DNA of 64,000 nucleotides, taken from Chelativorans sp. J32 (GTDB lineage Bacteria > Pseudomonadota > Alphaproteobacteria > Rhizobiales > Rhizobiaceae). Positions 7,535 to 31,176 of the stretch are shown here, piece by piece. The translations under genes were made by a program, and so were the position numbers. The stretch spans positions 1 through 64,000 of the forward strand of contig NZ_JAEQ01000016.1 in the NCBI RefSeq assembly GCF_000518985.1, in the 5' to 3' direction. The stretch's first letter is position 1. Each line of letters begins with the position of its first letter. A model generated the notes under the pieces. That model was not told the DNA's origin. It made no database searches and worked only from the letters and a program-made list of their open reading frames with translations.

Positions 7535-7567
7535 GCGTCATTCCTTCCGGCTGGGAGAATGGACAGC

Positions 7568-8308: not shown

Positions 8309-8423
8309 TCTTGTTCTTCCCTCTTCCCCCGCACTCCGGGTGCCGCGTTGAAAACCGCGCCGCTCTGCTGCGGGACCTTTTGCAATATATTACTATTGAC
8401 ATGAATGAATATCGTATGTCTAG

Positions 8424-8434
8424 TTATCATACAA
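8424..8434. promoter_or_regulatory. GntR-type operator candidate TTATCATACAA
   Basis: The 11-mer is the exact reverse complement of TTGTATGATAA found at 38550 and 40431, each time upstream of a catabolic gene or an FCD regulator. It fits the asymmetric FadR-subfamily pattern T-N-G-T-N3-A-(C/T)-N-A. It lies between the divergent GntR gene and LLM monooxygenase gene, 32 bp before the latter. Confidence 0.5.
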
Positions 8435-8465
8435 ATATCTTTTCAGATGGGAAGGGCAGGCTGCC

Positions 8466-9797: not shown

Positions 9798-9843
9798 TCT
9801 GCAGGGAACTCTTCCACCAAAAAACAAGAATGAGGGGAATATC

Positions 9844-14834: not shown

Positions 14835-15079
14835 TTGATCTCCATTCGTCTTGAGCCGCCAGCGTCTGCCCGGCTCTGTACGCGTTTTTGGCAAGATGCG
14901 GAATGTTATACGATTCCCGGAAAGGTTTCCCGCCGCGGAATAAGGCTGGATTGAAGAGCCGCGACGTTGCGCCCAGCCAGGACCTATTGACCGCGCACCT
15001 TCTGTAGGATGCGGAAAACGTAATGCCCGCAACCCAGCAGCTCTCGCACTGCCGCACGGGGACGCGCGCCGGTACAGTC

Positions 15080-16633
15080 TCAGGCCAGGCAGGCCTCAAT
15101 GAGATATGGACCTCGCCGGGAAAGACCGGCGTCGAGAAGCTTTGTGAATTCCTCGGCGGTCTCTGCACGGGCGGCTTCCACACCCATGCCCTTGGCGAGA
15201 GAGCACCAATCGAGCGTGGGATCCTCGATCTCGAGCATGCGCCGGGCGTTGTGGCCGAAATCGTTGACGCCCACATTGCGCATCTCGCCCTTGAGAATCG
15301 AATAGCCGCGGTTGGAAAACACGATCGTGAGGACGTCGAGGTTTTCGCGGGCCTGCGTCCAGAGACCCTGGACGGTGTACATGCCGCTTCCATCGGCCTG
15401 CAGCGCCACGACCTTGCGATCGGGACAGGCCACCGCTGCACCGGCAGCCAAGGGTATGCCGATGCCGATCGAGCCGCCGGTGAGCGGGAGATGGTCGTGT
15501 GGTGCCATATGGGGCGCAAGTTCCAGGAACCTGCCGGCGGAAGTGATGGATTCATCGGCGATAATAGCGCCTTCAGGAAGGGCGCGGGCCACAGCGACGG
15601 AAATCGCCGCCGGCGTCAGCTCGCCTGTCGGCGCTGCGAGCTCGCGTGCCGTGAAGGCGCCCGTCTGCGCGGCCCCGAGGTGCCGAGTTCCCAACTCGTC
15701 CGCCAGCATGTCCAAGACGTGTTGAAGATCGTGCTCTATGCCGGCAAGCTCGATCACTTCGCAGCCCTCGGGCAGCAATCGGCCCGGCTTGCCCGGATAG
15801 GCGAAGAAGCTTACGGGCGCCCGGCCACCGATCAGGATGGCGGTCTCGAATTCCTTTAGTGCCGCAACCGCAAGTTCGATATTGTAGGGCACCGGCTTCG
15901 GGAAAACGCGTCCGGCGCCTCGCTGCCATCTGGGGGCACGCTCGGTGAAAAGGGCAGCTCCCGTCCCGGCGGCAATCTTGCCGGCGATTTCCAGCGTATC
16001 GGCGCGGGTGGCACGCCCGCCAAGGAAGATTGCGGTTTTGCGGCCGCTACGCAAGGCGGCCACCGCAGCACGCAATGCCTCAGGCGCGACCTCTGGGCGG
16101 CTCGGCAATGTAACCCGCTGCAAGGGCTCTTCCTCGACCTCCCCCCATGCGGCGTCAGCAGGCAAGATCAGGGTTGATATGCCAGGTTTCGTGGCAGCGG
16201 CGATATAGGCTTCTTCCGCCTTCGCGCGGATATTGGCAGCGCTCGTCGCGCGACCGACCCAATGCGACATCGGCCGCGCGAGGCTTTCGATATCGCTCGT
16301 CAGCGGAGCATCATAACCAAGATGATAGGTCGCATGATCGCCCACCACGTTCACCATGGGCGTGCGGGCACGCCGGGCGTTGTGGAGATTGGCGAGCCCA
16401 TTGGCCAGTCCCGGCCCGAGGTGAAGCAGGGTGGCAGCGGGCTTGTCCGCCATGCGCGCATAGCCGTCTGCAGCCGCCGTCACGACGCCTTCGAAAAGGC
16501 CGAGCACGCAGCGCATTTCGGGTTTTCGATCCAGCGCCGCCACGAAATGCATCTCTGACGTGCCGGGATTGGCGAAGCAAACATTGACATCGTTTGCGAG
16601 CAGCACGTCGCACAGGCGGTCAGCCCCGTTCAT
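15080..16633 (-). CDS. thiamine-diphosphate-dependent enzyme, acetolactate synthase-like
   Basis: A 517-residue ThDP enzyme of the acetolactate synthase/benzoylformate decarboxylase group. The catalytic glutamate is in GLFEGVVTAAADGYAR, and the ThDP/Mg motif reads QADGSGMYT ending in VFSNRGY. Domain order is PYR (1-170), central (190-320), PP (345-510). No small subunit (ilvH) accompanies it, so it is more likely a 2-oxo acid decarboxylase or carboligase than a biosynthetic synthase. It is the third gene of a minus-strand run after gabT and gabD (36 bp gap to gabD): a decarboxylase making an aldehyde for the dehydrogenase would be a natural role, but this is inference. Confidence 0.8.
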   Translation of the reverse strand: MNGADRLCDVLLANDVNVCFANPGTSEMHFVAALDRKPEMRCVLGLFEGVVTAAADGYARMADKPAATLLHLGPGLANGLANLHNARRARTPMVNVVGDHATYHLGYDAPLTSDIESLARPMSHWVGRATSAANIRAKAEEAYIAAATKPGISTLILPADAAWGEVEEEPLQRVTLPSRPEVAPEALRAAVAALRSGRKTAIFLGGRATRADTLEIAGKIAAGTGAALFTERAPRWQRGAGRVFPKPVPYNIELAVAALKEFETAILIGGRAPVSFFAYPGKPGRLLPEGCEVIELAGIEHDLQHVLDMLADELGTRHLGAAQTGAFTARELAAPTGELTPAAISVAVARALPEGAIIADESITSAGRFLELAPHMAPHDHLPLTGGSIGIGIPLAAGAAVACPDRKVVALQADGSGMYTVQGLWTQARENLDVLTIVFSNRGYSILKGEMRNVGVNDFGHNARRMLEIEDPTLDWCSLAKGMGVEAARAETAEEFTKLLDAGLSRRGPYLIEACLA

Positions 16634-16669
16634 CTATTTCCCCTGATTTGATGGCTTCGGTCAGGCGCC

Positions 16670-18115
16670 TCAGGCGGCGGACTGCGAAACGAACTTGGTG
16701 ACGAGATAGGCTTCGATCGCCTCAGACCCGCCCTCGGTGCCATGGCCCGAATCCTTGATGCCGCCGAAGGGCACTTCGGGAAGGGCGAGCCCATTGTGAT
16801 TGATCGTCGTCATGCCCGCCTCGATTCTGAGGCCCAGCTGCTGCGCCGTCTCCGCGGAACCGGTAAAAGCGTAGGATGCGAGACCGAAGGGCAGACGGTT
16901 CGACTCCTCCACAACTTCATCGAGCGTTGAGAAGGGGTTGAAGACGGCGACCGGGCCGAACGGCTCCTCATTCATGATCCGTGCGTCCTTCGGCACGTTC
17001 GAGAGCACCGTCGGCTCGAAGAAGTTGCCCTTGTTGCCGATGCGCCGCCCGCCGGTCTTGAGTTCGGCGCCATGGTCCAGGGCATCCTGAATGAGCGATT
17101 CCAGGGCCGGAATGCGCCGCTCATTGGCGAGCGGGCCCATTTGCGTGCCTTCCTCCAGGCCGTTGCCGACCTTGATGGCCTTGGCAGCAGCGGTAAAGTC
17201 GCTCACCACCCGTTCATAGACGCCCTCCTGCACTAAAAAGCGGGTGGGGGAAACACAGACCTGGCCGGCATTACGGAACTTCGACGCGGCGAGCACCTTG
17301 ACGGCCTTGTCGAGATTGGCGTCCTCGAAGATGATCGCCGGCGCATGGCCGCCGAGTTCCATGGTCGCCCGCTTCATATGCGCGCCGGCAAGTGCGGCCA
17401 GATGCTTGCCGACCGGCGTCGAGCCCGTAAACGAGATTTTGCGGATGACGGGGTGCGGGATGAGGTATTCGGAAATCTCTGCGGGGACGCCGTAGACGAG
17501 ATTGACCACGCCGGCAGGCACGCCCGCGTCGGCGAAGACGCGGATGAGTTCAGCCGGCGAGGCGGGCGTTTCCTCGGGCGCCTTGACGATGATCGAGCAG
17601 CCGGCGGCAAGAGCCGCCGAGAGCTTGCGCACGATCTGGTTGATCGGAAAATTCCACGGCGTGAAGGCTGCGACCGGCCCGACCGGCAGCTTCACGGTCA
17701 TCTGCATGACGCCGGGCGCCCGGGCAGGAATGATCTGGCCGTAGGTGCGCCGGGCTTCCTCGGCGAACCAGTCGATCACGTCGGCGGCGGCCATAACCTC
17801 CACCTTGGCTTCGGCAAGCGGCTTGCCCTGCTCGCGTGTCATAATCCCGGCAATACCGTCCACTCGCTCGCGCAGGAGGGAGGCGGCCTTTCGCATAAGC
17901 TTAGACCGTTCGAAGGCCGAGACTTCGCTCCAAATCCGGAAGCCGCGATCCACTGCGGCAAGCGCGGCGTCGAGATCGGGTTTGGTAGCATGCGCTACGT
18001 GGCCGATAACTTCACCGGTGGCCGGATCCGTCACCGGGATGGACTTGCCTTCCGCGCCGCTGCGCCATTCGCCATCGATGAAGAGCTTCGTATCGGGATA
18101 GTTGCTCTGCGCCAT
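16670..18115 (-). CDS. gabD: NAD(P)-dependent succinate-semialdehyde dehydrogenase
   Basis: A 481-residue aldehyde dehydrogenase close to GabD: start [46 protein letters not shown], general base in [12 protein letters not shown], catalytic cysteine in [13 protein letters not shown]-terminal [15 protein letters not shown]. It oxidises succinate semialdehyde to succinate, the step after GabT, whose gene is 87 bp upstream. GGAAGAGG precedes the ATG by 7 bases. An enzyme of related semialdehyde specificity cannot be excluded. Confidence 0.85.
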
Positions 18116-18202
18116 GATCTACCTCTTCCTTCGGATGCTCAGGCTGGTCGGCGGTGCCGGCAAGGAACCGCGCGACGCGCTGCTGTTTCATGCCTGCCGG
18201 GC

Positions 18203-19495
18203 TCAGACCTCGACGGCGGAGAAAGCCGCCTCGATCGAAGCTTCCAGGATATCGAGTGCCTCACCCAATGTCTGCTCTTCGATGGTGAGCGGCGGCAACA
18301 GCCGTACTACATTCGCCCGCGTGCCGCAGGCAAGCAAGATCAGCCCGCGCTCCTCCGCTTCCGCCACGATCCGGTTCGTGAGCTGCGGAGCCGCGTTCTT
18401 GGATGCACGATCCGTGACGAGTTCAAAGGCGATCATCGCGCCAAGCCCGCGCACATCGCCCAGACGCTCCATTCCCTGGCGTTGGGCAATCGCACGAAGG
18501 CGCGATGTGACGCGCTCGCCGATCATGGCCGCCCGGGCGCAGAGATTCTCCTCCTCGATGACATCCAGAACGGCGTTGGCGGCCGCCGTTGCGAGCGGAT
18601 TGCCGGCGTAAGTGCCGCCGAGGCCGCCCGTGTGCGCCGCATTCATCACCTCGGCGCGGCCGGTCACGGCCGAAAGCGGGAACCCGCCCGCGATGCCCTT
18701 GGCCATCGTGACGAGATCCGGGCGAACGCCGGAGTGCTCGATGCCGAACATCTTTCCCGTACGCGCCATGCCAGACTGGATCTCGTCGCAGATCAGAAGG
18801 ATGCCGTGCTGGTCCGCAATCTCCCTGAGGCGTATGAGGAACTCGGCCGGCGCGACGTTGAAGCCACCTTCGCCCTGTACCGGCTCGACGATGAAGGCGG
18901 CGATCCTCTGCGGGTCGATATCGGATGCAAACAGGCTCTCAAGCCCGGCTATGGCGTCATCGACAGAGATGCCGAGGAAGGGGTTCGGGAAGGGGGCATG
19001 GAAGATTTCAGACGGGAACGGTCCGAAATTCTTTTTGTATGGGTTTACTTTGCCTGTCAGGGCCATGCCGAGCATCGTGCGTCCATGGAAGGCGCCGGAA
19101 AAGGCAATGATGCCCGGCCTCTGCGTGTAGGCGCGCGCGATCTTCACCGAATTCTCCACCGCCTCCGCGCCGGTCGTCACCAGCATCGTGCGGTTTTCCG
19201 CGCCTGTCGGAACGATCGCGTTGAGCCGCTCGGCCAAGCGAACATAGCTTTCATAGGGCGCGACGTGGAAACAGGTATGGGTGAACTGCTCGGCCTGCTG
19301 TCGTACGGCTTCCATCACCTTCGGGTGACGATGGCCTGTATTGTTGACGGCGATGCCGGCCGCGAAGTCGATATAGCGCTTGCCGTTCACATCCCAAAGC
19401 TCGGCATTCTCGGCACGCTCGGCATAGATTCCCCGCGTGCCTATCCCCGCCGCCACGGCCGCCTTCTGGCGTGCCTGCAATTCTGTTGAAAGCAT
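18203..19495 (-). CDS. gabT: 4-aminobutyrate aminotransferase
   Basis: A 430-residue class III aminotransferase. Visible are VNGKRYIDFAAGIAVNNTGHRHPKV, TTGAEAVENSVKIARAYT (PLP phosphate), ICDEIQSGMARTGKMF (cofactor aspartate) and the PLP lysine in TMAKGIAGGFPL. It transfers the amino group of GABA to 2-oxoglutarate, giving succinate semialdehyde for GabD downstream. Start ATG 19495 is preferred to 19534 because AGGGGTG lies just ahead and GabT proteins begin at this point. A palindrome at 19535-19552 directly upstream is the likely operator for the XRE-cupin regulator encoded next door. Confidence 0.85.
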   Translation of the reverse strand: MLSTELQARQKAAVAAGIGTRGIYAERAENAELWDVNGKRYIDFAAGIAVNNTGHRHPKVMEAVRQQAEQFTHTCFHVAPYESYVRLAERLNAIVPTGAENRTMLVTTGAEAVENSVKIARAYTQRPGIIAFSGAFHGRTMLGMALTGKVNPYKKNFGPFPSEIFHAPFPNPFLGISVDDAIAGLESLFASDIDPQRIAAFIVEPVQGEGGFNVAPAEFLIRLREIADQHGILLICDEIQSGMARTGKMFGIEHSGVRPDLVTMAKGIAGGFPLSAVTGRAEVMNAAHTGGLGGTYAGNPLATAAANAVLDVIEEENLCARAAMIGERVTSRLRAIAQRQGMERLGDVRGLGAMIAFELVTDRASKNAAPQLTNRIVAEAEERGLILLACGTRANVVRLLPPLTIEEQTLGEALDILEASIEAAFSAVEV

Positions 19496-19534
19496 TTGCT
19501 CACCCCTGATCTGAACAGGTCTCGGCTTTATCAC

Positions 19535-19552
19535 TGCTCATTATTTTGAGCA
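19535..19552. promoter_or_regulatory. palindromic operator candidate before gabT
   Basis: TGCTCA and TGAGCA form a perfect 6-bp inverted repeat with a 6-bp AT spacer, in the 80-bp gap between gabT and the XRE-cupin regulator gene that reads toward it. XRE-cupin repressors such as PuuR bind short palindromes near their targets. Confidence 0.5.
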
Positions 19553-19575
19553 ATAGATGGTCGAGATATTGGCCA

Positions 19576-20196
19576 CTACAGATAGGGCGGTGTGCAGGCC
19601 GAGATGACGACGGTCCGGGCGGACGAGATGTTGCGGAACCGATGCGGGATCCGGCTGTCGAAAAGATATGCCTCTCCCGCTTTCAGGATCCGCACTTCCT
19701 CTCCCACCGTCAGCTCCAGCTCGCCTTCGACCACATAGCCTCCTTCGCTGGAGGAATGCTGCAGGAAGGAGGCGCCGGTGTCGGCACCCGGTTCATACAC
19801 TTCATGCAGAATCTGCAGGTTATATTCCCGCGCATTGCCGATCTGGCGAAACACCATGCGCCCGCCGCCCTCGCCGATGGCGCTCATGGCGGCCTTCGAC
19901 GTCAGGTCGACCAGCTCTTCCACGCCGAAGAACGGCCCGGTCGGGAACTGGCGCTCGGGCTCGAAGAAATCCGCCATACTGACGCCAAGCCCGCTCAGGA
20001 TCTTGCGCAACGTGGCGATGGATGGGCTGATCTTGTTCTTTTCCACATTTGAGATCTGTGCGTGCGGAACGCCGGCACGCATCGCAAGCTGCCGCTGGGA
20101 CAGCCCGGCTGCCGCGCGCATCGCTCTCATGCGGGCGCCGATGTCGAAATGTGCCTCCAGCTCATCCGGCTCCGCTTGTTGCTCTGCTTTGGACAT
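19576..20196 (-). CDS. XRE-family regulator with cupin domain (PuuR-like)
   Basis: A 206-residue regulator: an XRE helix-turn-helix at residues 19-75 (MRAMRAAAGLSQRQLAMRAGVPHAQISNVEKNKISPSIATLRKILSGL) and a cupin fold at about 135-205 (SSEGGYVVEGELELTVGEEVRILKAGEAYLFDSRIPHRFRNIS). This build is that of PuuR, the putrescine-use repressor, and related regulators of GABA and amine catabolism. It lies 80 bp upstream of gabT in the same direction, with a palindrome between. Control of the gab-type genes is a strong inference from position. Confidence 0.85.
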   Translation of the reverse strand: MSKAEQQAEPDELEAHFDIGARMRAMRAAAGLSQRQLAMRAGVPHAQISNVEKNKISPSIATLRKILSGLGVSMADFFEPERQFPTGPFFGVEELVDLTSKAAMSAIGEGGGRMVFRQIGNAREYNLQILHEVYEPGADTGASFLQHSSSEGGYVVEGELELTVGEEVRILKAGEAYLFDSRIPHRFRNISSARTVVISACTPPYL

Positions 20197-20419: not shown

Positions 20420-20449
20420 TATCTGAAATGGATACGGTATATTCAGATA
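20420..20449. promoter_or_regulatory. inverted repeat across the IclR start codon
   Basis: TATCTGAA (20420-20427) and TTCAGATA (20442-20449) are perfect 8-bp inverted arms with a 14-bp spacer that contains the ATG at 20428. A bound IclR dimer here would cover its own start region, which suggests autorepression, or that transcription starts at or near the ATG (leaderless message). Confidence 0.5.
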
Positions 20450-21183
20450 GAATACAGCCCGAAGGTGGCGTCCGGCCGCTCTCGACGGCGTTGAAGACGT
20501 TGGCCGTGCTGGACGTGTTTGCCGGCAGCGCTCGCGGCATGCGGCTTCCGGAGATCGCGCGGGCGATGGGCCTCTCGCGACCCACGGCCTATCAGCGTCT
20601 CCTGACGCTCGTGGAAGCGGGCTGGATCGAGCAGGACGAGGAGGGGCGCTATCGCCTCTCCATGCATGTTTGCCGGTTGGCTGCCGCGGCTCTCGAGCAG
20701 GCGGATCTCGGCTCGCGCGTACAGCCGATCCTCGAAGCGCTCGTGCATGAAGTAAAGGAAACGGCATCGCTTGCGGTGCTTGACCGGGGCGTTCCCTGCA
20801 TCGTCTCCCGCGTGGAATCGGACAGCCTGCTGCGCGCCGAGCAGAAGGTCGGCACGACCATGTCTCTCGAAGGGTCGGCATCGGGCCGCATCCTCACCGC
20901 CTTTGCCGACGAGGGCACCTTGCGGCGGCTGCAGGAAAGCGGAAGGCCGCTCGCCTCCGAAGAGGTGCTGGCTGCGGCACGCGCCGACGGCTACGCGCTT
21001 TCGAGCGGGTACACTCATACAGGCGTGCGCGGCATCGCCGCCCCCGTCTTCGACATACAGGGCAGATGCACCGCGACGCTGTCGCTGGTGATGCCGGAAA
21101 CCCGCTTCAAACTTGAAGCAATCCGCGAGCCGCTTTTGCGGGCAGCGGAGAAGATCACGAAAATGCAGCAAGGAGCGCGATAA
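20428..21183 (+). CDS. IclR-family transcriptional regulator
   Basis: A 251-residue IclR protein: winged helix at residues 15-75 (ALKTLAVLDVFAGSARGMRLPEIARAMGLSRPTAYQRLLTLVEAGWIEQDEEGRYRLS) and the C-terminal effector domain (VEADSLLRAEQKVG-like segment, GSASGRILTAFADE, GYALSSGYTHTGVRGIAAPVFD, TLSLVMPETRF). It leads the operon 20.4-29.0 kb and is 5 bp ahead of the next gene, so it is probably co-transcribed. No ribosome site is well placed before ATG 20428, and an inverted repeat spans it. The effector is presumably the substrate of the pathway encoded downstream. Confidence 0.85.
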   Translation: MDTVYSDRIQPEGGVRPLSTALKTLAVLDVFAGSARGMRLPEIARAMGLSRPTAYQRLLTLVEAGWIEQDEEGRYRLSMHVCRLAAAALEQADLGSRVQPILEALVHEVKETASLAVLDRGVPCIVSRVESDSLLRAEQKVGTTMSLEGSASGRILTAFADEGTLRRLQESGRPLASEEVLAAARADGYALSSGYTHTGVRGIAAPVFDIQGRCTATLSLVMPETRFKLEAIREPLLRAAEKITKMQQGAR

Positions 21184-21188
21184 CCCGC

Positions 21189-22901
21189 ATGTCCGTAGTG
21201 CGCGAGACATTGATGGAAGAAGCCCCGCGTCCGAGATCCGGCCAGGAGCTGATGCGGCCGGAAAAGCTCGCCGCCTTCCAGCCCAGCCGGGTGAGCATCA
21301 CCCGGGCGCTCATGAACAAGCTCATTCGCGAGCGCTGGGAAATCTCCGTCGAGCGCTTCGACGTGGATGAGACCTCCACCGGCACGGCCGTCTATTCCAT
21401 CAAGGCGCCACGGCAGGAATTCAGTTTCATCGCCTTCTCCCGGCCTCCGAGCCGCAAGGCCCGCACCGGCCGGATCATCGGCCAGGCCTGGGACATGATG
21501 GGCACGCTGAACGAGGGTCCTGCAACCGAGGCCGACATCCGATCGGCTCGCGAAGAATTGCCGAAGCTCTATCGCGGCCGTGCAACGCCAAACGCCCTGG
21601 TGTGGTGCCGCTCCAACCGTTCCATGCGGGTCTTCGACCAAACGCTCGCCGCGCTTGCCGAAGGCAGGCAGCCCTCGATCGATGACCTGTCGCAGGTCTG
21701 CTATCTGATGCGTAATACCGGGCTCGACGGCAACGGCACGTTCGGCACGCGCCCCTTTCCGTCGCTCGGTCGCGATCACGCGCTTGGGCGCCCGCTCGAA
21801 GCGCAGCTCCTCACCGCCTATCTGATGCGGGAATATTCCTGCGACCTGGTGGAGCATCTCGCCCGGCTTGCATCGCCAAAGGCCGTTGGGCTCGATCCGG
21901 CGATCCGGCGCTACCTCGGTGTTGGCAACGGCTCTGCCCTCGGCCTCATCTTCTTCATACACAAGCACCCGCAACTGATCAGCAGCTTCATCGCAGCGCG
22001 CGAGCAGGCGATCGCGATCGCGCGTGGGCTCAGGCTGGCAAAGGGCGACAAGCGGATCGATGAGCTCCTGGGGCTGGTCCGCCGCGCGATCACATTCCGC
22101 CGCGAGGACCGGATGATGTACGAAGCCTTCGCCTCCAGTGCCGAAGTGGCCGAGGATCTGGAGAAGGTGACAGTAGCCCTCAAGGAGCTGCGTGAAACCG
22201 GCATGGTCGGCGGTGCGCACCGGACCTATCCGCTGGACGTGCTCGCGCAGCGCTTCGAGGCGGAACTCAAGCCCGAATCCTTCGAGACATATCTGTCTCT
22301 GCTTATCGAGCTCGTGCCGGAGGAAGCAGATGCGCTGCTGCCTTCGATCGGCGGTCCGGACGAGGTGAATGTGTCTCCTGCCGAGACGGTAGAAAGCCTC
22401 AGCGATCTGATCCGGCAGCAGTATCAGTGGGCGCTGGACATCGATATGTCGACGCCCGATGCCTACAAATATGTCTGGTACAAGTCCGAAACGGCCGAAG
22501 AGCCGCGCCGTGGCGCTCGCGAGGAGGTGCCGGAGGCTCTCGATCTCGGCCTCGATATCTGCGGCGGCGTGCAGTCGCTCATGGCCGATCTGAGCCGGGA
22601 GGCTCCGGACCTTTCGGTGGCGCGCTTCCTCATGAAGCACCCCGGCCACCGTCATCTCGTGGCGCGCATACAGACGCTGCGGGATCTGCCCTACCACACA
22701 CCGATGGCGAACATTAACGCGGAGGATTTCATCCCGATCGATCTCGTGCGGCTGATGAATGTCGGCATCCATGGCATCGATAAGACGCGCGACTTCCTGC
22801 GCCGCAATTTGCGCGGCGTGCTTTATCACGGCGCACCGACACCGGCCGAAATTCGTGCCGGCCGTGCGGAGTTCTGGGCCTATCCGGCGGAGCCTCACTG
22901 A
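21189..22901 (+). CDS. conserved-looking protein of unknown function, 570 aa
   Basis: I do not recognise this family. The 570-residue protein has no signal peptide and no clear membrane span, and is mostly helical. It has an N-terminal domain with a short beta hairpin (GTAVYSIKAPRQEFSFIAFS), a central helical region (LEAQLLTAYLMREYSCDLVEHLARL; LIFFIHKHPQLISSFIAAREQAIAIARGL) and a tail rich in conserved-looking polar residues (HRTYPLD, WYKSETAEEPRRG, MKHPGHRHLVARIQTLRDLPYHTPMANINAEDF). No Walker, Rossmann or metal motif stands out. It overlaps the next gene as TGATG and is the second gene of an IclR-led importer operon, so an enzymatic role in breaking down the imported compound is likely. Function not assigned. 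Confidence 0.7.
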   Translation: MSVVRETLMEEAPRPRSGQELMRPEKLAAFQPSRVSITRALMNKLIRERWEISVERFDVDETSTGTAVYSIKAPRQEFSFIAFSRPPSRKARTGRIIGQAWDMMGTLNEGPATEADIRSAREELPKLYRGRATPNALVWCRSNRSMRVFDQTLAALAEGRQPSIDDLSQVCYLMRNTGLDGNGTFGTRPFPSLGRDHALGRPLEAQLLTAYLMREYSCDLVEHLARLASPKAVGLDPAIRRYLGVGNGSALGLIFFIHKHPQLISSFIAAREQAIAIARGLRLAKGDKRIDELLGLVRRAITFRREDRMMYEAFASSAEVAEDLEKVTVALKELRETGMVGGAHRTYPLDVLAQRFEAELKPESFETYLSLLIELVPEEADALLPSIGGPDEVNVSPAETVESLSDLIRQQYQWALDIDMSTPDAYKYVWYKSETAEEPRRGAREEVPEALDLGLDICGGVQSLMADLSREAPDLSVARFLMKHPGHRHLVARIQTLRDLPYHTPMANINAEDFIPIDLVRLMNVGIHGIDKTRDFLRRNLRGVLYHGAPTPAEIRAGRAEFWAYPAEPH

Positions 22902-23635
22902 TGCAGAATTCGCAGACCACAGAGATGCTGCGCATAATGCCGCGCGAGATGCGGATGATGACCGAGCGCATCTTTTCCCTCACCGGTCTTCCCAAAGGCT
23001 TCTTTCTCGCTGCGCAAGACGTGGTGATGTACTCGCAAAAGCTTGGCTTGGGGGGCTTTGCACTCCTGGAGGAGCGTTTCGAGCAGCTGAAAAACGCAGA
23101 TCCGGCGCGGATTTCGATCCTGTCGCAGGATGGCGCGGCGTTGCGGCTTGATGCCGGCGGCCAGCATGCCTGGTTCGTCATCCCCGGCGTCATCGATCTT
23201 CTGGGTGAGCTCGTGCATCATTTCGGCGCAGCGCGCCTGTCGGTCGTGAATGCGATCGACCCCGCCGAGCTTCAGCTTGCTGCGCCCCTGGCTGCCCGCA
23301 GCGGTATCGCCGTCATATTCACCGGCGGCGACGAACCTCTCCTGTCCGCTTCAGCAGCACCGCTTGGCGGCGATTTTGGCCATGACGAGCCGCTGCTGTG
23401 GGAATTGCTCCAGCAAGGTACGCAGATCGAGGCAGGGCTTTGGTGGCGCATCTACCACCTGGCGCAGAAGGCACTCACGCCTGACAGCGTCGTCTCGCGC
23501 CGCCATGCGGGACCCCTGATCGTCAACGACGACGGCACCGTCATTGGCCGCAAGGACAATGACGACGAGACAGACATCAGTTTCCTCACCTCGCCCAAGA
23601 TCGGCGGCTACGAGACGGAAGGGGCTCAATCATGA
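22901..23635 (+). CDS. protein of unknown function, 244 aa (possibly DUF3726-like)
   Basis: A 244-residue protein without signal or membrane segments: helical N-terminus (RIMPREMRMMTERIFSLTGLPKGFFLAAQDVVMYSQKLGLGGFALLEE), a central alpha/beta part (RISILSQDGAALRLDAGGQHAWFVIPGVIDLLGELVHHFG) and a flexible acidic C-terminus (GRKDNDDETDISFLTSPK). It might belong to DUF3726, but I recall that family only weakly. Start ATG overlaps the stop of the 570-aa gene (TGATG) and its end overlaps the M19-like gene by 4 bases, so all three are translationally linked and probably form a complex or consecutive steps. Confidence 0.65.
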   Translation: MQNSQTTEMLRIMPREMRMMTERIFSLTGLPKGFFLAAQDVVMYSQKLGLGGFALLEERFEQLKNADPARISILSQDGAALRLDAGGQHAWFVIPGVIDLLGELVHHFGAARLSVVNAIDPAELQLAAPLAARSGIAVIFTGGDEPLLSASAAPLGGDFGHDEPLLWELLQQGTQIEAGLWWRIYHLAQKALTPDSVVSRRHAGPLIVNDDGTVIGRKDNDDETDISFLTSPKIGGYETEGAQS

Positions 23636-24615
23636 TCATCGACGGGCTGCAATGCGGCCACTTCGACCGGCAGGCCTTCACCTCGCTCAAGACAGCGGGC
23701 GTGGGTGGCGTGGTGGTCACCTGCGGCTTCTGGGAAGGCGCGGTGGAATCGCTGGATTCCCTCGGTAAATGGCGTGATCTCGTTCGGGAGAATGCAGATG
23801 TGGCGGAGATTGCCACCACCGCCGCCGCCGTGCAGCGTATAGGTGCCGCAGGCAAGGTAGCCGTCATCCTCGGTTTCCAGAACGCCAATCTTTTCGAAGG
23901 CCGCATCCGCTTTGTGGAGCTTTTCGCGGAGCTGGGCGTTCGCGTCGTCCAGCTGACCTACAACAACCAGAACGAGCTCGGGGGAAGCTGCTACGAGGCC
24001 GAGGACTCCGGCCTTGCCCGATTCGGCAAGGAAGTGGTGCGCGAGATGAACAGGGCGGGCATCCTGGTGGATTGCAGCCATGTCGGCGATCGCACAACCC
24101 TCGATGCGATCGAGGTCTCCGAAAAGCCCATCGCCGTCACACACGCCAATGCGCGCTCCCTGTTTGACCACAAGCGCAACAAGTCCGACGACGTGCTGAG
24201 AGCCCTTAAGGAAACCGGCGGTGTCATCGGTTGCGCCGCCTACCGGAACATCACCGGCGATGAATACTGCAAGTCGATCGAGGCCTGGTGCGGCATGGTC
24301 GCGCGCACTGTGGAGATCGCCGGCATCGATTCCGTCGCCATCGGCACCGACCGCAGCCACAACTTCACCGCCCCCGATTACGCCTGGATGCGCCAGGGCC
24401 GCTGGACGCGCGGCGTGGACTATGGCGCGGGTTCTGCGGCCCGACCCGGCAAGGCGCCCCCGCCGGATTGGTTCCAGACCGTCGAAGATGTGCAGGTGAT
24501 CCCAAACGGCCTCCGCACCGTGGGCTTCTCGGAAGAAGAGGTCGCAAAAATAACCCACGGGAATTGGCTGCGCCTCTACGAGGCGACCTTCAGGAACACG
24601 AGAGAGGAGAATTGA
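23632..24615 (+). CDS. M19 membrane-dipeptidase-like hydrolase, variant active site
   Basis: A 327-residue TIM-barrel hydrolase of the renal-dipeptidase family. Zinc-ligand positions found: His10-x-Asp12 (GHFD), His150 (VDCSH), His171 (THANARSLFDHKRN) and Asp240 (IGTD). The bridging glutamate, normally in GIEG, is replaced: the segment reads GFQNANLFEG (Gln83-Asn84). The family variant with GFQN is one I recall from other alphaproteobacteria, so the change is probably lineage-wide, not a mutation. It may bind a single metal or cleave something other than dipeptides. No signal peptide, so cytoplasmic. Overlaps the previous gene by 4 bp and is 1 bp from the binding-protein gene. Confidence 0.75.
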   Translation: MIIDGLQCGHFDRQAFTSLKTAGVGGVVVTCGFWEGAVESLDSLGKWRDLVRENADVAEIATTAAAVQRIGAAGKVAVILGFQNANLFEGRIRFVELFAELGVRVVQLTYNNQNELGGSCYEAEDSGLARFGKEVVREMNRAGILVDCSHVGDRTTLDAIEVSEKPIAVTHANARSLFDHKRNKSDDVLRALKETGGVIGCAAYRNITGDEYCKSIEAWCGMVARTVEIAGIDSVAIGTDRSHNFTAPDYAWMRQGRWTRGVDYGAGSAARPGKAPPPDWFQTVEDVQVIPNGLRTVGFSEEEVAKITHGNWLRLYEATFRNTREEN

Positions 24616-24616
24616 T

Positions 24617-25675
24617 ATGACCGCAACCGGCAAAGGGTTCTCGACCCTGCTCGCGCCGAACCGTCGGACGTTTCTCAAGGCTTCCGGCGCCGCGCTGACG
24701 ACGACGCTCGCAATGCCCTATATCACGCGTGCGCAGGAAAACGTGCTTTACATCAATACCTGGGGCGGCCCCTGGGAGGAAGCGGCGAAGGCTCATCTGT
24801 TCGATCCCTTCACCGCAGAGACGGGCATTCAGATCCGCACGGTTTCGCCCGTTTCCTTCGCCAAGCTTGCTCAACAGGTGCAGACCGGCACCTATGAATT
24901 CGACATCACCACGCTCGGCGGCGGCGAGCTGATCCGGGCCGACCAGGCCGGTATCATCGAAGACATCGCCGAGGCGCCGTATGAGGGCGGCCTGTTCCAC
25001 AACGGCGTGGCCTCGCATGCCTTTGCGACCGTCATTGCCTACCGCACCGACAAGTTCCCGAATGGCGGTCCGCAGAACTGGGCCGAGTTTTGGGACGTGG
25101 AGCGCTTCCCTGGCTCGCGCTGCCTCCAGCGCTATCCCGCCCGCGTCCTGCCGCTCGCGCTCCTGGCCGACGGCGTTGCCGTGGAAGACCTTTACCCGCT
25201 CGATATCGACCGGGCTTTCGCTTCGCTCGACAAGATCAAGGATCACATCCTCGTCTGGTGGACCGCCGGAGCCCAGTCGACGCAGATCCTGCGCGACGGC
25301 GAGGTCGACCTGATCGGCATCTGGCACGGCCGCTACTTCGAAGCGCTGGATGCTGGCGCGCCGGTCGGCATGACCTGGAACCAGGGCCAGATCGACCGCG
25401 CCTATTGGGTGGTGGCCAAGGACACGCCGAACGCGGAAAACGCGAAGAAGTTCATCGAATTCGCTACCAGCGCCAAGCCGCTGGCAGGCTTCGTGACGCA
25501 GGCGGACTATGGCCCGCTGAACCCGGCGGCGAACGAGTTCATCTCCGCCGAAGACGCCAAGCGTATGCCCACCTCGCCGGAGAATTATCCGCTCACCTTC
25601 GAGCAGGATATCGAGAATTTCGGCGCGGATATCGAGGAAGTGGCGCAGCGCTTCGAGGAATGGATCGCAAGCTGA
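24617..25675 (+). CDS. ABC transporter substrate-binding protein, PotD/spermidine-putrescine class
   Basis: A 352-residue periplasmic binding protein exported by Tat: PNRRTFLKASGAA (Arg16-Arg17), ending near ITRAQE. The mature part matches PotD-like family-1 binding proteins (VLYINTWGGPWEEAAKAHLFDPFTAETGIQI, GEVDLIGIWHGRYFEAL, NAKKFIEFATS). It opens the importer genes of the IclR operon and is followed by two stem-loops, then permeases and ATPase. The PotD class binds polyamines but also opines, aminophosphonates and other amines, so the ligand stays open. Confidence 0.85.
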   Translation: MTATGKGFSTLLAPNRRTFLKASGAALTTTLAMPYITRAQENVLYINTWGGPWEEAAKAHLFDPFTAETGIQIRTVSPVSFAKLAQQVQTGTYEFDITTLGGGELIRADQAGIIEDIAEAPYEGGLFHNGVASHAFATVIAYRTDKFPNGGPQNWAEFWDVERFPGSRCLQRYPARVLPLALLADGVAVEDLYPLDIDRAFASLDKIKDHILVWWTAGAQSTQILRDGEVDLIGIWHGRYFEALDAGAPVGMTWNQGQIDRAYWVVAKDTPNAENAKKFIEFATSAKPLAGFVTQADYGPLNPAANEFISAEDAKRMPTSPENYPLTFEQDIENFGADIEEVAQRFEEWIAS

Positions 25676-25698
25676 TGCGATGATTGCGGGACCTCGGG

Positions 25699-25761
25699 AA
25701 GGGTGATGCCGCTCCTGGCCGACCCTTCTTGAGCCCGCTCCGTCACGCCCGAGCGAGCGGG
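25699..25761 (+). other. two tandem stem-loops between binding protein and permease genes
   Basis: AAGGGT (25699-25704) pairs with ACCCTT (25722-25727), and CCCGCTC (25734-25740) pairs with GAGCGGG (25755-25761), the latter followed by TGTCTTTT. Such structures after a binding-protein gene usually protect the upstream message or partly terminate transcription, raising binding protein over permease. Confidence 0.5.
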
Positions 25762-25796
25762 TGTCTTTTCACCCGAGCAACAAAAAGGGGAGCGGC

Positions 25797-26645
25797 ATGG
25801 GAGCCACGATTTCCAGACTTTCTGAAAAGCCAAATCTCTGGCCGTGGCTGCTGCTTGCACCGCTTGCCATCTATCTGGCGATCTTCTTCCTGGTGCCGCT
25901 CATCGACGTCGCGATCATGAGCTTTACGGAGCCGCGCCTCTCCATCGCGAATTACCAGAAGGTCCTCACCGGCGCGCTGTATCAGAAGGTCTTTCTCAAC
26001 ACCTTCATGACAGCCGCCCTGGTGACGCTCGCCTGTCTCTGCGTCGGCTACCCGCTCGCCTATCTGATGAACGCCTCCAAGCCGCGCACGGCGATGCTCA
26101 TCCTGCTGCTCGTCACCATGAGCTTCTGGACCAGTTTCCTTGTGCGGACCTACGCGTGGATGGTGCTCCTGGGCAATAACGGGCCGATCGTCGCCTTCCT
26201 GAGAGCAGTCGGCTTTGAAACCCCGCCGCAGCTTCTCTTTACGCGTTTCTCCTCCACGCTCGCGATGGTGCACATCCTGGCACCCTACATGATCATGAAC
26301 ATCTATTCCGTGATGCGGAAGATCGACCCGGTGCTTATCCGCTCGGCCGAAAGTCTCGGCGCGCGCGGCTTCTCCCTCTTCCGTCATGTCTATCTTCCGC
26401 TGACCGCCCCCGGCATCGCCAATGGCTGCGTGCTAGTCTTCGTCATCTGCCTCGGCTTCTATGTGACGCCGGTGCTGCTCGGCAGCCCGCGCGAGCAGAT
26501 GATCGCCGGTCTCATCGGGCATCAGATCGAGGAATTTCTGGCCTTCGGCATGGGTTCCGCCATGGCGATGGTTCTGCTCGCAATCACGCTTGCGATCCTC
26601 GCGATCTATCACCGCCGTTTCGGCCTCGACAAATTGTGGGGCTGA
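25797..26645 (+). CDS. ABC transporter permease, PotB-like
   Basis: A 282-residue inner-membrane permease with six predicted helices (first at about 20-42, LLLAPLAIYLAIFFLVPLIDV) and the cytoplasmic EAA loop that contacts the ATPase (RSAESLGARGFSLFRHVYLPLTAPG). Start ATG 25797 is chosen over 25761 because AAAAGGGGAG lies immediately ahead. It pairs with the PotC-like permease whose gene begins 1 bp after its stop. Confidence 0.85.
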   Translation: MGATISRLSEKPNLWPWLLLAPLAIYLAIFFLVPLIDVAIMSFTEPRLSIANYQKVLTGALYQKVFLNTFMTAALVTLACLCVGYPLAYLMNASKPRTAMLILLLVTMSFWTSFLVRTYAWMVLLGNNGPIVAFLRAVGFETPPQLLFTRFSSTLAMVHILAPYMIMNIYSVMRKIDPVLIRSAESLGARGFSLFRHVYLPLTAPGIANGCVLVFVICLGFYVTPVLLGSPREQMIAGLIGHQIEEFLAFGMGSAMAMVLLAITLAILAIYHRRFGLDKLWG

Positions 26646-26646
26646 C

Positions 26647-27459
26647 ATGGACCGCTTCATGCGCCTCATCGGCATTCTCGTCATCGTCTTCATCGCCGCG
26701 CCGCTTGTCATCGTCGTGCCGATGTCCTTCTCCGATGCCCGTTCACTCCAGTTCCCGCCGCCAGGCTACTGGCTCGGCTATTACCGGGCTTATTTCTCCG
26801 ACATGAACTGGCTGCTGCCGACCTGGAACAGCATCCTGATCGCCACCGCCACGACTGTGCTCACGATGGCGCTCGTGGTGCCCGCCACCTTTGCCCTGGT
26901 GCGCCATCGTTTCGCCGGAAAGAGCTTTGCCGATCTTATGATGCTGATGCCGCTGGCGGTACCGCATATCGTCATGGCCGTGGGGTACTATTCCTTCCTG
27001 GGCGACCTGCGGCTGGTGCACACTCATTTCGGCGTCGTGCTCGCGCATACCTGTCTTTCGGTGCCGATCGCCTTCCTGGTGCTCTCGGCCAACCTGAAGG
27101 GCTTCGACCGCAATCTGGAGCGTGCGGCCCAGAGCCTCGGCGCCAGCCCGGTGCAGACCTTCATCCATGTGACGCTGCCCATTCTCCGGCCGGGCCTCCT
27201 GATCAGCGCACTGTTCGCCTTCATCCAGTCCTTCGACGAGACGGTGGTGGCAATCTTCATCTCCGGCCGCAATGCCGAGACGCTGCCGCGCAAGATGTTC
27301 GACAGCATCCGGCAGGAGGCTGATCCGGTGATCGCCGTGATCTCCACCCTTCTCTTCCTTGCCGTGCTCGTGGCCCTGGTCGCGCCCTTCGCCTGGCGCG
27401 GCCTTCGCAGCCGCCTTGCGGAGAGTGCCCCGCGCTCCGCGTCACCCGCCGGCCAGTAA
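26647..27459 (+). CDS. ABC transporter permease, PotC-like
   Basis: A 270-residue permease with six helices, beginning MDRFMRLIGILVIVFIAAPLVIVVPMSF. The EAA loop is LERAAQSLGASPVQTFIHVTLPILRPG. It forms the heterodimeric channel with the PotB-like protein. The C-terminal tail is basic and short. Start at 26647 gives the usual N-terminus directly on the first helix; the longer frame from 26590 overlaps the upstream gene. Confidence 0.85.
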   Translation: MDRFMRLIGILVIVFIAAPLVIVVPMSFSDARSLQFPPPGYWLGYYRAYFSDMNWLLPTWNSILIATATTVLTMALVVPATFALVRHRFAGKSFADLMMLMPLAVPHIVMAVGYYSFLGDLRLVHTHFGVVLAHTCLSVPIAFLVLSANLKGFDRNLERAAQSLGASPVQTFIHVTLPILRPGLLISALFAFIQSFDETVVAIFISGRNAETLPRKMFDSIRQEADPVIAVISTLLFLAVLVALVAPFAWRGLRSRLAESAPRSASPAGQ

Positions 27460-27473
27460 CGCCAGGATCCAAG

Positions 27474-28541
27474 ATGCATCAATATCTTCAGCTCAACGGA
27501 ATTACGAAGACCTACGGGGATTTCACCGCCCTCAAGAAAGTGGATCTCACGATCGAGAAGGGCGAGTTCGTCACCTTTCTTGGTCCGAGCGGATCCGGCA
27601 AGACCACGACGCTGATGATCATTGCCGGGTTCGAGAAGGCGACGGCCGGCGACGTTCTGGTGGAAGGCAAGTCCCTTTCAGGACTGGCGCCGCACGAGCG
27701 CAATATCGGCATCGTCTTCCAGAACTACGCGCTGTTTCCCCATAAGACGGCGGTGGAGAATGTCTATTTCCCGCTGCAGATGCGTGGCGTTCGCCGAGGC
27801 GAGGGCCTGAAGAAGGCCGACGAGATGTTGGCGCTGGTCGGCCTTGGAGGTTTCGGCAAGCGATATCCCAAGGAGCTTTCGGGAGGACAGCAGCAACGTG
27901 TGGCGTTGGCCCGCGCACTCGTTTTCGAACCCTCGCTGCTCCTCCTCGACGAGCCGCTCGGCGCCCTCGACAAGAACCTGCGCGAGCAGATGCAGATCGA
28001 GATCAAGCGTATCCAGCGCGCGCTCGGCGTGACCACAATCTTCGTCACCCATGATCAATCGGAAGCCATGTCCATGTCCGACCGGATCGTGGTTTTCGAG
28101 AAGGGCGAGATCCAGCAGGCGGCGACCCCGCTCGAGATTTATCACAAGCCGCAGACCCGCTTCGTGGCGGGCTTCATCGGCGAAAGCAATCTCGTCCCCG
28201 CAAGGATTGGCGACGCCGCGGCCAACCAGGCGGAGAGCACGGCGCTCGGCATCTGCGATTACGCGCCGACTGAATCCGCCGTAACCGACGGACAGGACGT
28301 GACCCTGCTGATCCGCCCGGAGCATATCCGTCTTTCGCGCAACCCGATCGAGGGGCGCAAGAATGTACGCATGCAGGTCGAGACCATCGTCAATTATGGA
28401 GACAACGCGCTCGTCATCGGCAAGGTCGGCGATCTTCAAATGCGTGTCCGAGTGCTCGGCGCCGACGTGGTCATCATCAAGGAAGGCGAGGAATGCTGCA
28501 TAAGCTGGCAGCCTGAAGCCGTCTTCGTCGTGCCTCGCTAG
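27474..28541 (+). CDS. ABC transporter ATP-binding protein, PotA-like
   Basis: A 355-residue ATPase: Walker A GPSGSGKTT at residues 37-45, Q-loop IVFQNYALFPHKT, signature LSGGQQQRVALARAL, Walker B LLLLDEPLGALD, switch histidine in VTHDQSEA, and a C-terminal TOBE-type regulatory domain (about 240-355, TLLIRPEHIRLS). It energises the importer formed with the two permeases. Spacing of 14 bp from the PotC-like gene places it in the same operon. Confidence 0.9.
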   Translation: MHQYLQLNGITKTYGDFTALKKVDLTIEKGEFVTFLGPSGSGKTTTLMIIAGFEKATAGDVLVEGKSLSGLAPHERNIGIVFQNYALFPHKTAVENVYFPLQMRGVRRGEGLKKADEMLALVGLGGFGKRYPKELSGGQQQRVALARALVFEPSLLLLDEPLGALDKNLREQMQIEIKRIQRALGVTTIFVTHDQSEAMSMSDRIVVFEKGEIQQAATPLEIYHKPQTRFVAGFIGESNLVPARIGDAAANQAESTALGICDYAPTESAVTDGQDVTLLIRPEHIRLSRNPIEGRKNVRMQVETIVNYGDNALVIGKVGDLQMRVRVLGADVVIIKEGEECCISWQPEAVFVVPR

Positions 28542-28621
28542 GCATCTGAAGTCGTGGATCACCCGACAAGCGGCAGGCAGGCGAGAGCTTGCCCGGCCAA
28601 CATCTGATCAGGAGGAAACCC

Positions 28622-29005
28622 ATGAACGAAAACGCTACCGGGCCTGCGGAACTCATCACACGCTTCGGCGTCGGCCAGCGCATGAGCCTAGCAACGGTTT
28701 TGAACGGCACCGGCTATTTTGCCGTCACACCCGAGGCGCCTTATGACGGAAAGTTGAGCACGGCTGAGCAGACTCGACAATTGCTCGCCAAGGCAGAGGC
28801 GCGCCTTGCTCAAATCGGCAGCGGCAAGGATCGGCTTGCATTCGTTGCGATCGTCCTCGCCGATATGGCCGATTATCAGGCCATGAACGCGGTATGGGAC
28901 GAGTGGGTGGCGGATATCGAGCCGCCTTCCCGCGCCTGTTTCGAGGGTCGCCTCGCCAGTCCCGACCTCAAGGTCGAGATGATCATGGTTTCTGCGGTGT
29001 CGTAG
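28622..29005 (+). CDS. RidA family protein (second copy in window)
   Basis: A 127-residue RidA-like protein (GQRMSLATVLNGTGYFAVTPEAP, TRQLLAKAEARLAQIGSGKDRLAFVAIVLADM, PPSRACFEGRLASPDLKVEMIMVSAVS). The substrate-binding arginine in the PSRACFEGRL stretch is present. ATG 28622 follows AGGAGGAAA. It closes the IclR operon, suggesting the pathway releases an enamine or imine, for example from an oxidised amine or a dehydroamino acid. It differs clearly from the copy at 13189. Confidence 0.8.
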   Translation: MNENATGPAELITRFGVGQRMSLATVLNGTGYFAVTPEAPYDGKLSTAEQTRQLLAKAEARLAQIGSGKDRLAFVAIVLADMADYQAMNAVWDEWVADIEPPSRACFEGRLASPDLKVEMIMVSAVS

Positions 29006-29098: not shown

Positions 29099-30319
29099 TT
29101 ATGCTCCGAACTTGACCGAGGGATGCGTCAGCGCAGTCATGATGCCGCGCAGTTCGGCAAGGCCCTTGAGACGGCCGATCGTGGGATAGCCAGGCTGGCC
29201 CTTGCGCCCCAGATCGTCGATGATGTCCTGGCCATGATCCGGTCGCATGGGGATCTGGTGGTCGGCGCGTCCTTCGGCTTTGCGGCGGTCCTCCTCTTTC
29301 ACGATCTCGCCGATCAATGCGACCATGTCTGTATCGCCGCCCAGATGTTCTGCCTCATGAAAGGAGGCAGGGGTGCCGGGGGTCTCTATCGTTACGTTGC
29401 GCAGGTGCAGGAAATGCACGCGCGGCGCGAATTCGCGCATGATCGCGGGTAGGTCGTTGTCAGGGCGGGCACCGAGGGAGCCGGAGCAAAGCGTCATGCC
29501 ACTTGCTGGGCTTTCGACGGCGTCCAGTATGCGGCGATAGTCATCCGCCGTCGACATGATCCGCGGCAGGCCGAGAAGCGGGAAGGGCGGATCGTCCGGA
29601 TGGCAGCAAAGCCGCATGCCCAGCTTTTCAGCGAGGGGTGTCACTTCCTCCAGAAAGGCGATGAAATTGGCGCGCAGCCGCTCGGCATCGATCGCGTCAT
29701 ATTCGGCCAGGTGACGGCGGACATCGTCTATGGACATGCTCTCGGTCGAGCCGGGCAGGCCTGCCGTCACATTGGCCGCGAGTTGTCTCTTTCGCTCTTC
29801 GTCCATGTTGGCGTGGCGCCTCGCGGCAGCCTCCACGACCTCCTCCGTGAAATCGGCAGTAGCCTGCTTGCGCTGCAGGATATGAATGTCGAACGCGGCG
29901 AAATCGATCAGATCGAAGCGCATGCAGGTGCCGCCATGGGCTACGCGCCAGGCGAGGTCGGTGCGCGTCCAGTCGAGCACCGGCATGAAATTGTAACAGA
30001 TCGTTTCGATCCCTCGCGCGGAAAGGTTCCCCAGGCTTTGCTTGTAGTTGGCGATGTGCTCACGCCAGGCGCCCTTCTGCTTCTTGATGTCCTCCGAAAC
30101 GGGCAGGCTTTCGACCACCTCCCATTTAAGCCCGGACGAGGAGCCGTCCTTCATACGGCCGATTTCCTCCTGGCGCTTCGCGATCTCGGCATCGTTCCAG
30201 ACGGCGCCGGTGGGGACGTGATGCAGGGCGCTCACCACCCTCTCCACTCCAGCCTGCTTCATATCGTCGACCGATGTGAGATCGTGAGGACCAAACCAGC
30301 GCCAAGTCTGCCGCATCAT
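29099..30319 (-). CDS. uxuA: mannonate dehydratase
   Basis: A 406-residue TIM-barrel dehydratase matching UxuA (E. coli 394 residues). It begins MRQTWRWFGPHDLTSVDDMKQAGVERVVSALHHVPTG and contains ICYNFMPVLDWTRTDL, LCCHPDDPPFPLLGLPRIM and TLCSGSLGARPDNDL. It removes water from D-mannonate to give 2-keto-3-deoxygluconate. Divergent from the GntR gene 30441. UxuB and UxaC are not in the window, so mannonate or a gulonate-type acid may come from outside through the adjacent TRAP transporter. Confidence 0.9.
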   Translation of the reverse strand: MMRQTWRWFGPHDLTSVDDMKQAGVERVVSALHHVPTGAVWNDAEIAKRQEEIGRMKDGSSSGLKWEVVESLPVSEDIKKQKGAWREHIANYKQSLGNLSARGIETICYNFMPVLDWTRTDLAWRVAHGGTCMRFDLIDFAAFDIHILQRKQATADFTEEVVEAAARRHANMDEERKRQLAANVTAGLPGSTESMSIDDVRRHLAEYDAIDAERLRANFIAFLEEVTPLAEKLGMRLCCHPDDPPFPLLGLPRIMSTADDYRRILDAVESPASGMTLCSGSLGARPDNDLPAIMREFAPRVHFLHLRNVTIETPGTPASFHEAEHLGGDTDMVALIGEIVKEEDRRKAEGRADHQIPMRPDHGQDIIDDLGRKGQPGYPTIGRLKGLAELRGIMTALTHPSVKFGA

Positions 30320-30392
30320 TCCTGCCTTTTCTCAATGGGATCGCGTGTCAGGCGATGATGTCGCCCCGCGTTCCGGAGAATCATACACGGGT

Positions 30393-30414
30393 GTTGACTA
30401 GTATGGAAGTATGG
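30393..30414 (+). promoter_or_regulatory. promoter/operator region of the uxuA-divergent GntR gene
   Basis: TTGACT at 30393 is followed by a tandem repeat AGTATGG-A-AGTATGG (30400-30414). A degenerate copy of the TTATCATACAA word (8 of 11 matching) lies at 30379-30389. The arrangement suits autoregulation by the GntR protein and control of divergent uxuA. Confidence 0.4.
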
Positions 30415-30440
30415 TGGATATCTCAAGAAGGAGGAACGCC

Positions 30441-31136: not shown

Positions 31137-31176
31137 CGGCGCAGGCTCAAACAATCATCAAGCCAGGGAGGCATTT

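Follow-up and report, generated by a model that had tools for sequence, protein, structure and literature searches.

Homarine (N-methylpicolinate) catabolism and 4-aminobutyrate (GABA) uptake are the described systems with which the locus presented here is most readily compared. The homarine operon, homABCDER, is reported to occur in Rhodobacterales, SAR11, and SAR116 and to yield N-methylglutamate. Homarine catabolism involves N-methylglutamate dehydrogenase (PMC13390433, which cites Ferrer-Gonzalez et al. 2026, doi 10.1038/s41564-026-02313-7). The GABA site of the solute-binding protein (SBP) Pf622 comprises eight residues, of which D228 contacts the amino group (PMC12999171), and a predicted dipeptidase gene, pepD, precedes the dimethylglycine (DMG)-dehydrogenase genes in Vibrio natriegens and P. 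aeruginosa (PMC12093977). Here, we analyse a nine-gene operon of Chelativorans sp. J32, located at positions 20428-29005 of the window, i.e., the 64,000-nucleotide stretch at the start of contig NZ_JAEQ01000016.1. The host genome (4.7 Mb, 45 contigs) contains a single copy of the gene for the 570-aa protein of this operon, p570, which is followed by the gene for a 244-aa protein, p244.

We propose, at a probability of about 0.42 for the reading as a whole, that the cluster is a substrate-inducible catabolic island encoding a sister pathway to that of related clusters, which are themselves probably the homarine operon. The p570 and p244 proteins would act on a cationic, probably ring-containing carboxylate, and the products would leave the pathway via GABA/succinate semialdehyde. 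The proposal is based on gene content, conservation, pairing, homologies, and the altered sites of the M19-family hydrolase and the SBP, from which we infer complex formation, ring opening, the order of steps, the substrate class, and inducibility. The genes of the operon and of the divergent block upstream of it are as follows.

15080..16633, minus strand: thiamine diphosphate (ThDP)-dependent enzyme, acetolactate-synthase/benzoylformate-decarboxylase-like, passes the NF005760 cut-off
16670..18115, minus strand: semialdehyde dehydrogenase, like succinate-semialdehyde dehydrogenase (SSADH) and alpha-ketoglutarate-semialdehyde dehydrogenase (KGSA-DH)
18203..19534, minus strand: 4-aminobutyrate transaminase (GabT), passes TIGR00700, nearest solved structure PuuE
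19576..20196, minus strand: PuuR-like helix-turn-helix-cupin regulator, NF007408 1.3e-34, below the cut-off
20428..21183, plus strand: IclR-family regulator (Pfam), first gene of the operon
21189..22901, plus strand: p570, 570 aa, proposed large subunit, without a Pfam or NCBIfam family and without a convincing PDB fold match
22901..23635, plus strand: p244, 244 aa, proposed small subunit, divergent DUF3726 protein, modelled as an Ldh_2 fold minus its nucleotide-binding part
23632..24615, plus strand: variant M19-family amidohydrolase, without HxD and with Gln for the bridging Glu, two His and an Asp being retained
24617..25675, plus strand: SBP of the GABA/mannopine-binding clade (SBP_bac_8)
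25797..26645, plus strand: ATP-binding cassette (ABC) permease of PotB type (BPD_transp_1), start refined
26647..27459, plus strand: ABC permease of PotC type (BPD_transp_1), start refined
27474..28541, plus strand: ABC ATPase of PotA type (ABC_tran and TOBE_2)
28622..29005, plus strand: RidA-family protein (Ribonuc_L-PSP), start refined

All nine plus-strand reading frames lie where the initial annotation of this DNA placed them, and its operon bounds hold for these genes, but it left out the divergent block at 15080-20196, which is often linked to them. The translational coupling it had claimed for genes 2-4 was confirmed from the junction bases: the p570 stop and the p244 start overlap as TGATG (22899-22903), the p244 and M19 genes share the 4-bp ATGA (23632-23635), and the M19 stop is separated from the SBP start by one base. 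Co-expression of p570, p244, and the M19 protein is supported.

The cluster was compared with 32 loci of the same type, 28 from genome contigs and four from plasmid records, with L030 representing the S. meliloti strains; since some of these loci end at contig edges, the lower gene counts are minima. The IclR, p570, p244, and M19 genes are present on 32 of 32 loci, so the arrangement is not due to chance, and the two unassigned genes are not absent from homologous operons, an outcome that the initial annotation had considered. The SBP and the first permease are found on 30 loci each, the second permease and the ATPase on 29 each. RidA, rightly reported as a member of the operon, is common but not universal (21 of 32). 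Genes of the divergent block are less frequent: the ThDP enzyme occurs on 19 loci, the PuuR-like regulator on 18, GabT on 17, and SSADH on six. The ThDP/transaminase/regulator block is upstream and divergent at some loci and reversed behind RidA at others (e.g., L012, L015, L020, L023, L024, L028, and L029); its linkage is retained despite the varying position, suggesting that it moves as a module. A near relative is the locus of Aminobacter sp. J41 (L003), with 99% identity.

No family cut-off in Pfam or NCBIfam was reached by p570, and a fold search of the PDB with its confident structure model gave no convincing match. Nevertheless, p570 is a member of a large and widespread family that has no Pfam or NCBIfam entry. 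Of 385 genomes sampled from the class to which the window belongs, 53 have a member, among them genomes of 1.2-1.4 Mb, and a search of 398 genomes of the phylum matched 29 genomes at 33 places. In the same 398 genomes, PF12525 (DUF3726) was found at 28 places in 26 genomes, every one of which also belongs to the 29 p570-positive genomes; each place follows a p570 place on its 3' side within about 105 bases. Three p570-positive genomes lack PF12525: in the window genome and in G265, the slot is occupied by a p244-type gene, and in G339 by a 179-aa reading frame with the same tail motif. The constant position of PF12525 directly behind the 570-type gene indicates that the two form an obligate pair. 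The description of p570 and p244 as two unknown proteins therefore holds as far as family cut-offs are concerned, but neither is an orphan, p570 being part of a widespread family and p244 a divergent DUF3726 protein. That a family so common, even in genomes of 1.2-1.4 Mb, is unnamed in the searched libraries and has no convincing fold match makes it worth attention.

An M19 gene accompanies p570 on 36 of 40 selected loci, presence being a match on a locus of up to 20 kb (on the opposite strand in L083 and L127; missing in L078, L132, L138, and L140). These 40 loci were picked by hand, 20 from the 33 places of the 398-genome search and 20 from the 385-genome survey; the G083 and G099 places of the latter are also among the 33, two places each come from G083, G099, G183, and G319, and L069 is apparently on the same contig as L024. 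The p570 alignment has 55 invariant columns, many of them charged. A p570 tree of 106 rows, calculated by a quick method after segments below 480 aa had been dropped, with some genomes represented twice and the 99% identical L003 standing for the window as its duplicate, separates a window clade of 33 rows from a large sister clade of 69 rows, each with SH-aLRT support of 100. Four long-branched rows join the tree on the window side. Further p570 relatives on long branches (L137, L138, L139, and L037), some of them located beside peptide-type or Pot-type importers, possibly represent a third clade with other substrates.

Like p570, p244 reached no family cut-off in Pfam or NCBIfam, and PF12525 matched neither p244 nor any protein of its own genome. 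Alignment of profiles with hhalign, using 42 proteins from the DUF3726 position (row L122 was left out because of a stop within the frame) and 32 p244 proteins, yielded a probability of 96.9% and an E-value of 1.5e-10 over 197 columns; with only four rows on the DUF3726 side, the probability was 3.1%. Judged by sequence, p244 is a divergent DUF3726 protein. Proteins at the DUF3726 position mostly end in SR..GAGAG..DND, with exceptions, and p244 in SRRHAG...DNDDETD. In its structure model, p244 has the Ldh_2 fold minus the nucleotide-binding part, with 181 of the 350 residues of 1z2i_A aligned; the aligned length and ranges suggest that it lacks the NAD(P)-binding domain of Ldh_2. A literature search on DUF3726 found no papers.

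The M19 protein matches Peptidase_M19 (PF01244) with 251.4 bits against a cut-off of 26 (E 1.6e-74). Its metal site is altered: HxD, the metal-ligand motif of M19 dipeptidases, is lost (DGLQC versus DGHND), and the bridging Glu is replaced by Gln (FQN versus IEG/AEG), while two further His and an Asp are kept (CSH, THAN, IGTD). Both changes occur in all ten M19 proteins compared, namely that of the window and nine relatives from both p570 clades; the L144 row, a wrong reading frame encoding a binding protein, was disregarded. A canonical M19 copy in the same genome (L143) retains all motifs, including HxD, and another copy (L145) has FQN. These changes make a two-metal dipeptidase site unlikely. 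The statement that the enzyme is without the bridging glutamate was thus correct, but this is not the only change, since its subfamily also lacks HxD, and the nearest solved relative, 2i5g (9e-52), shares both alterations in the alignment. The 2i5g protein is from P. aeruginosa, possibly from a dgcAB-linked gene; the pepD product encoded before the DMG-dehydrogenase genes is presumably likewise an M19 protein of the variant kind.

The importer is of the PotABCD type, with an SBP_bac_8 protein, two BPD_transp_1 permeases, and an ATPase with TOBE_2 (Pfam); the SBP has a possible twin-arginine signal scoring below the Pfam cut-off. The importer class assigned earlier therefore stands, but the SBP is closest to 4i1d and to GABA-, mannopine-, and agropine-binding proteins, and PotD matches far more weakly. 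Compared with the eight Pf622 site residues given in PMC12999171, the window SBP keeps five and has Trp for T13, His for F100, and Ala for D228. Among 31 SBPs, these positions hold Trp in 31, His in 31, and Ala in 29 or Ser in two, respectively; row L019 of this alignment is a second SBP copy. The pocket changes suggest that the ligand combines a carboxylate with a cationic group that is hydrophobic or quaternary rather than a free ammonium. A second SBP, 62-64% identical, is encoded near the operon in L002, L004, L005, L013, and L027, in four of these five behind RidA, and at some loci this copy has other residues at the His and Tyr positions of the pocket.

In the divergent block, the transaminase scores 561.4 bits against the TIGR00700 equivalog cut-off of 506.65. 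The presence of the ThDP enzyme, GabT, and SSADH suggests that the product is a C4 compound at the level of GABA/succinate semialdehyde. The ThDP gene is followed in the same orientation by genes for a class I aminotransferase, above the NF004854 cut-off, and for another Rid-family protein, the second in the window (13189-14843, minus strand); no match to them was found on the 32 related loci, L003 being cut there.

The sister clade provides the link to homarine. Its clusters frequently have the order LysR, aldehyde dehydrogenase (ALDH), M19, BCCT or glycine-betaine importer, p570, DUF3726, and Ldh_2, with many partial versions, and their core was found in roseobacters, some rhizobial plasmids, and genomes of SAR11 size, in some of them beside Sox/Mgd-like genes. 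For example, two loci in genomes of 1.2 and 1.3 Mb, L123 and L124, carry the M19-p570-DUF3726 core with a SoxA-like gene about 6 kb away. The Phaeobacter ALDH is nearest to the 2,5-dioxovalerate/alpha-ketoglutarate-semialdehyde dehydrogenase models, below their cut-offs. Given this gene content and distribution, we consider it likely that the sister clusters are the homarine operon. Their chemistry would then have to break open a pyridinium ring and eliminate one carbon to arrive at an alpha-amino dicarboxylate; in the scheme we envisage, p570/DUF3726 would attack the substrate, ALDH would oxidise a semialdehyde, the M19 protein would perform a hydrolysis, and Ldh_2 would reduce an imine. The initial annotation had seen in the locus the best candidate in the window for a new catabolic system. 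The set is indeed undescribed in the literature found, but a sister clade of the trio is part of a believed homarine operon; as for the trio itself, no description was found in the literature searched, from which subscription journals were mostly missing.

For the window cluster, the following sequence of events could be proposed. The compound taken up through the SBP and the PotABC-type importer would be a small carboxylate whose cationic group is hydrophobic or quaternary; a betaine or an N-heterocycle is probable. The p570 and p244 proteins would form a single two-subunit enzyme with the active site on p570, while p244, Ldh_2-like and without the cofactor domain, would be a structural or gating partner whose conserved tail may reach into p570. 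This pair would attack and open the substrate, the M19 variant, at most a one-metal amidohydrolase, would hydrolyse an amide- or formyl-like product, and RidA would hydrolyse the resulting imine or enamine. The ThDP enzyme, GabT, and SSADH would carry the product to succinate, under regulation by IclR and the PuuR-like protein. Trigonelline is one candidate substrate among several. A bolder extension, which we regard as rather unlikely, is that p570 and its cofactor-less Ldh_2-like partner represent a new class of ring-opening enzymes with an undescribed fold, shared by the homarine pathway and, in the window clade, by an unreported pathway through which rhizobia would degrade an N-methylated or N-heteroaromatic carboxylate of plants, for instance trigonelline.

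Several points weigh against this proposal. Substrate, activity, and complex are all predictions from sequence, and the idea of ring opening depends on the probable link to homarine. The likeness of p244 to Ldh_2 is weak by sequence: two orthologues gave 0.0054 and 0.094, the window p244 had no Ldh_2 match in the Pfam search, and in comparisons with an Ldh_2 profile the p244 profile obtained a probability of 1.7% and the DUF3726 profile one of 61.3% over 55 columns. Equivalents of the Pf622 residues R205 and Y264 hold in 28 of the 31 SBPs each. The exit block and RidA are not universal on the 32 loci, some of which are cut by contig ends, and it is not obvious where GabT and the ThDP enzyme would fit into a homarine-like scheme.

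Uptake and catabolism of GABA or another omega-amino acid (5-aminovalerate etc.), with GabT and SSADH degrading GABA and the p570, p244, and M19 proteins in an auxiliary role, e.g., freeing GABA from a conjugate, would agree with the SBP matches to the GABA sensor precursor 6dgv (3.5e-47) and Atu4243 (4eq7/4euo, 1.1e-43), with the GabT score above its cut-off, and with the PuuR-like regulator. However, the 31 SBPs have Ala or Ser in place of D228 and Trp in place of T13, and GabT occurs on 17 of the 32 loci versus 32 for the trio, which makes this explanation unlikely. We find it quite improbable that the M19 protein is an ordinary dipeptidase or amidase in an operon degrading an amide or dipeptide-like conjugate, with p570 and p244 as accessories: its strong match is to a peptidase family and the SBP has relatives of mannopine/agropine type, but HxD and the bridging Glu, both present in L143, are gone from the ten window- and sister-type proteins, and p570 and p244 are the invariant core.

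Absence of a recognised catalytic family or convincing fold in p570, together with the lack of a cofactor domain in the p244 model, would also suit a non-catalytic complex with a regulatory or scaffold role in substrate sensing. This is very unlikely in view of the 55 invariant columns, whose many charged residues are typical of enzymes, the presence of an IclR regulator in the operon already, and the persistence of the pair in genomes of 1.2-1.4 Mb. Degradation of homarine itself by the window cluster is the least plausible explanation. The M19-570-DUF3726 core is homologous, and an ALDH gene at 46954-48366 (plus strand) encodes a protein 53% identical to the sister-type (Phaeobacter) enzyme, though 18 kb from the operon; for the ALDHs on the 32 loci, the six best of eight matches to the sister type have 30-33% identity. 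Against it, the window p570 falls outside the sister clade, both clades having support of 100; no sister-type Ldh_2, Sox/Mgd-like, BCCT, or PurU relatives were found in the window or on the 32 loci; and a LysR of sister type was absent from the window and matched once, weakly (25%), on those loci. Moreover, Aminobacter aminovorans KCTC 2477 carries a window-type cluster on pAA02 (L031) and a sister-type one on pAA01 (L036), suggesting different substrates. We retain the sister pathway for a cationic carboxylate as the preferred reading.

Elsewhere in the window, an NtaA/DmoA-type flavin mononucleotide-dependent monooxygenase (8466-9797, passes TIGR03860), a flavin reductase (6049-7008), and a relative of MtaA/CmuA-like methyltransferases (5067-6017) are encoded; the genes at 5067-9797 are perhaps a separate two-component oxygenase cluster. 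The region 9664-11655 looks as if it were rearranged, with a peptide-type binding protein that ends early (profile positions 2-276 of 368) followed by reading frames which by eye resemble a sensor-kinase remnant and a response regulator. Behind the operon (29099-32148), a UxuA mannonate dehydratase gene precedes reading frames that by eye are GntR-like and TRAP-type binding-protein-like; these genes look like an unrelated uronate system.

Among known systems, the pSymB cluster of S. meliloti is similar in its order IclR-570-242-M19-SBP-permeases-ATPase, followed by a class III aminotransferase, SSADH, and RidA, but its p570 is 50% identical, the aminotransferase is another one, and no ThDP enzyme was found on the locus. 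A dme mutant of S. meliloti shows induction of smb20383, a gene with a transport annotation (PMC4960864); judged by its gene number, it probably belongs to this orthologous cluster. Since S. meliloti 1021, a model rhizobium, carries the cluster, the question is open to direct testing. DUF3726 proteins (PF12525) share with p244 the place behind p570, homology over 197 columns, and the C-terminal SR..(G/H)AG..DND motif, but differ in that the PF12525 profile itself does not match p244. Relative to Ldh_2 oxidoreductases (PF02615; 1z2i, ureidoglycolate dehydrogenase), the p244 model has the fold of about half of the enzyme, with some 180 of 340 residues aligned, and lacks the other half, taken to be the nucleotide-binding domain. 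The GABA importers Pf622 and Atu4243 belong to the same SBP clade, and equivalents of W9, F102, W202, R205, and Y264 of the Pf622 site are present in the window SBP, unlike those of T13, F100, and D228. With the homarine operon, as far as the sister clusters represent it, the window shares the homologous M19-570-DUF3726 core, while it has IclR instead of LysR, a PotABCD-type importer instead of a BCCT or glycine-betaine importer, and RidA, GabT, and the ThDP enzyme instead of a linked KGSA-DH-like ALDH, Ldh_2, and Mgd. Should the sister clusters indeed degrade homarine, the window cluster would encode a terrestrial sister of that pathway, acting on another substrate, and comparison of the two would show the role of each subunit.
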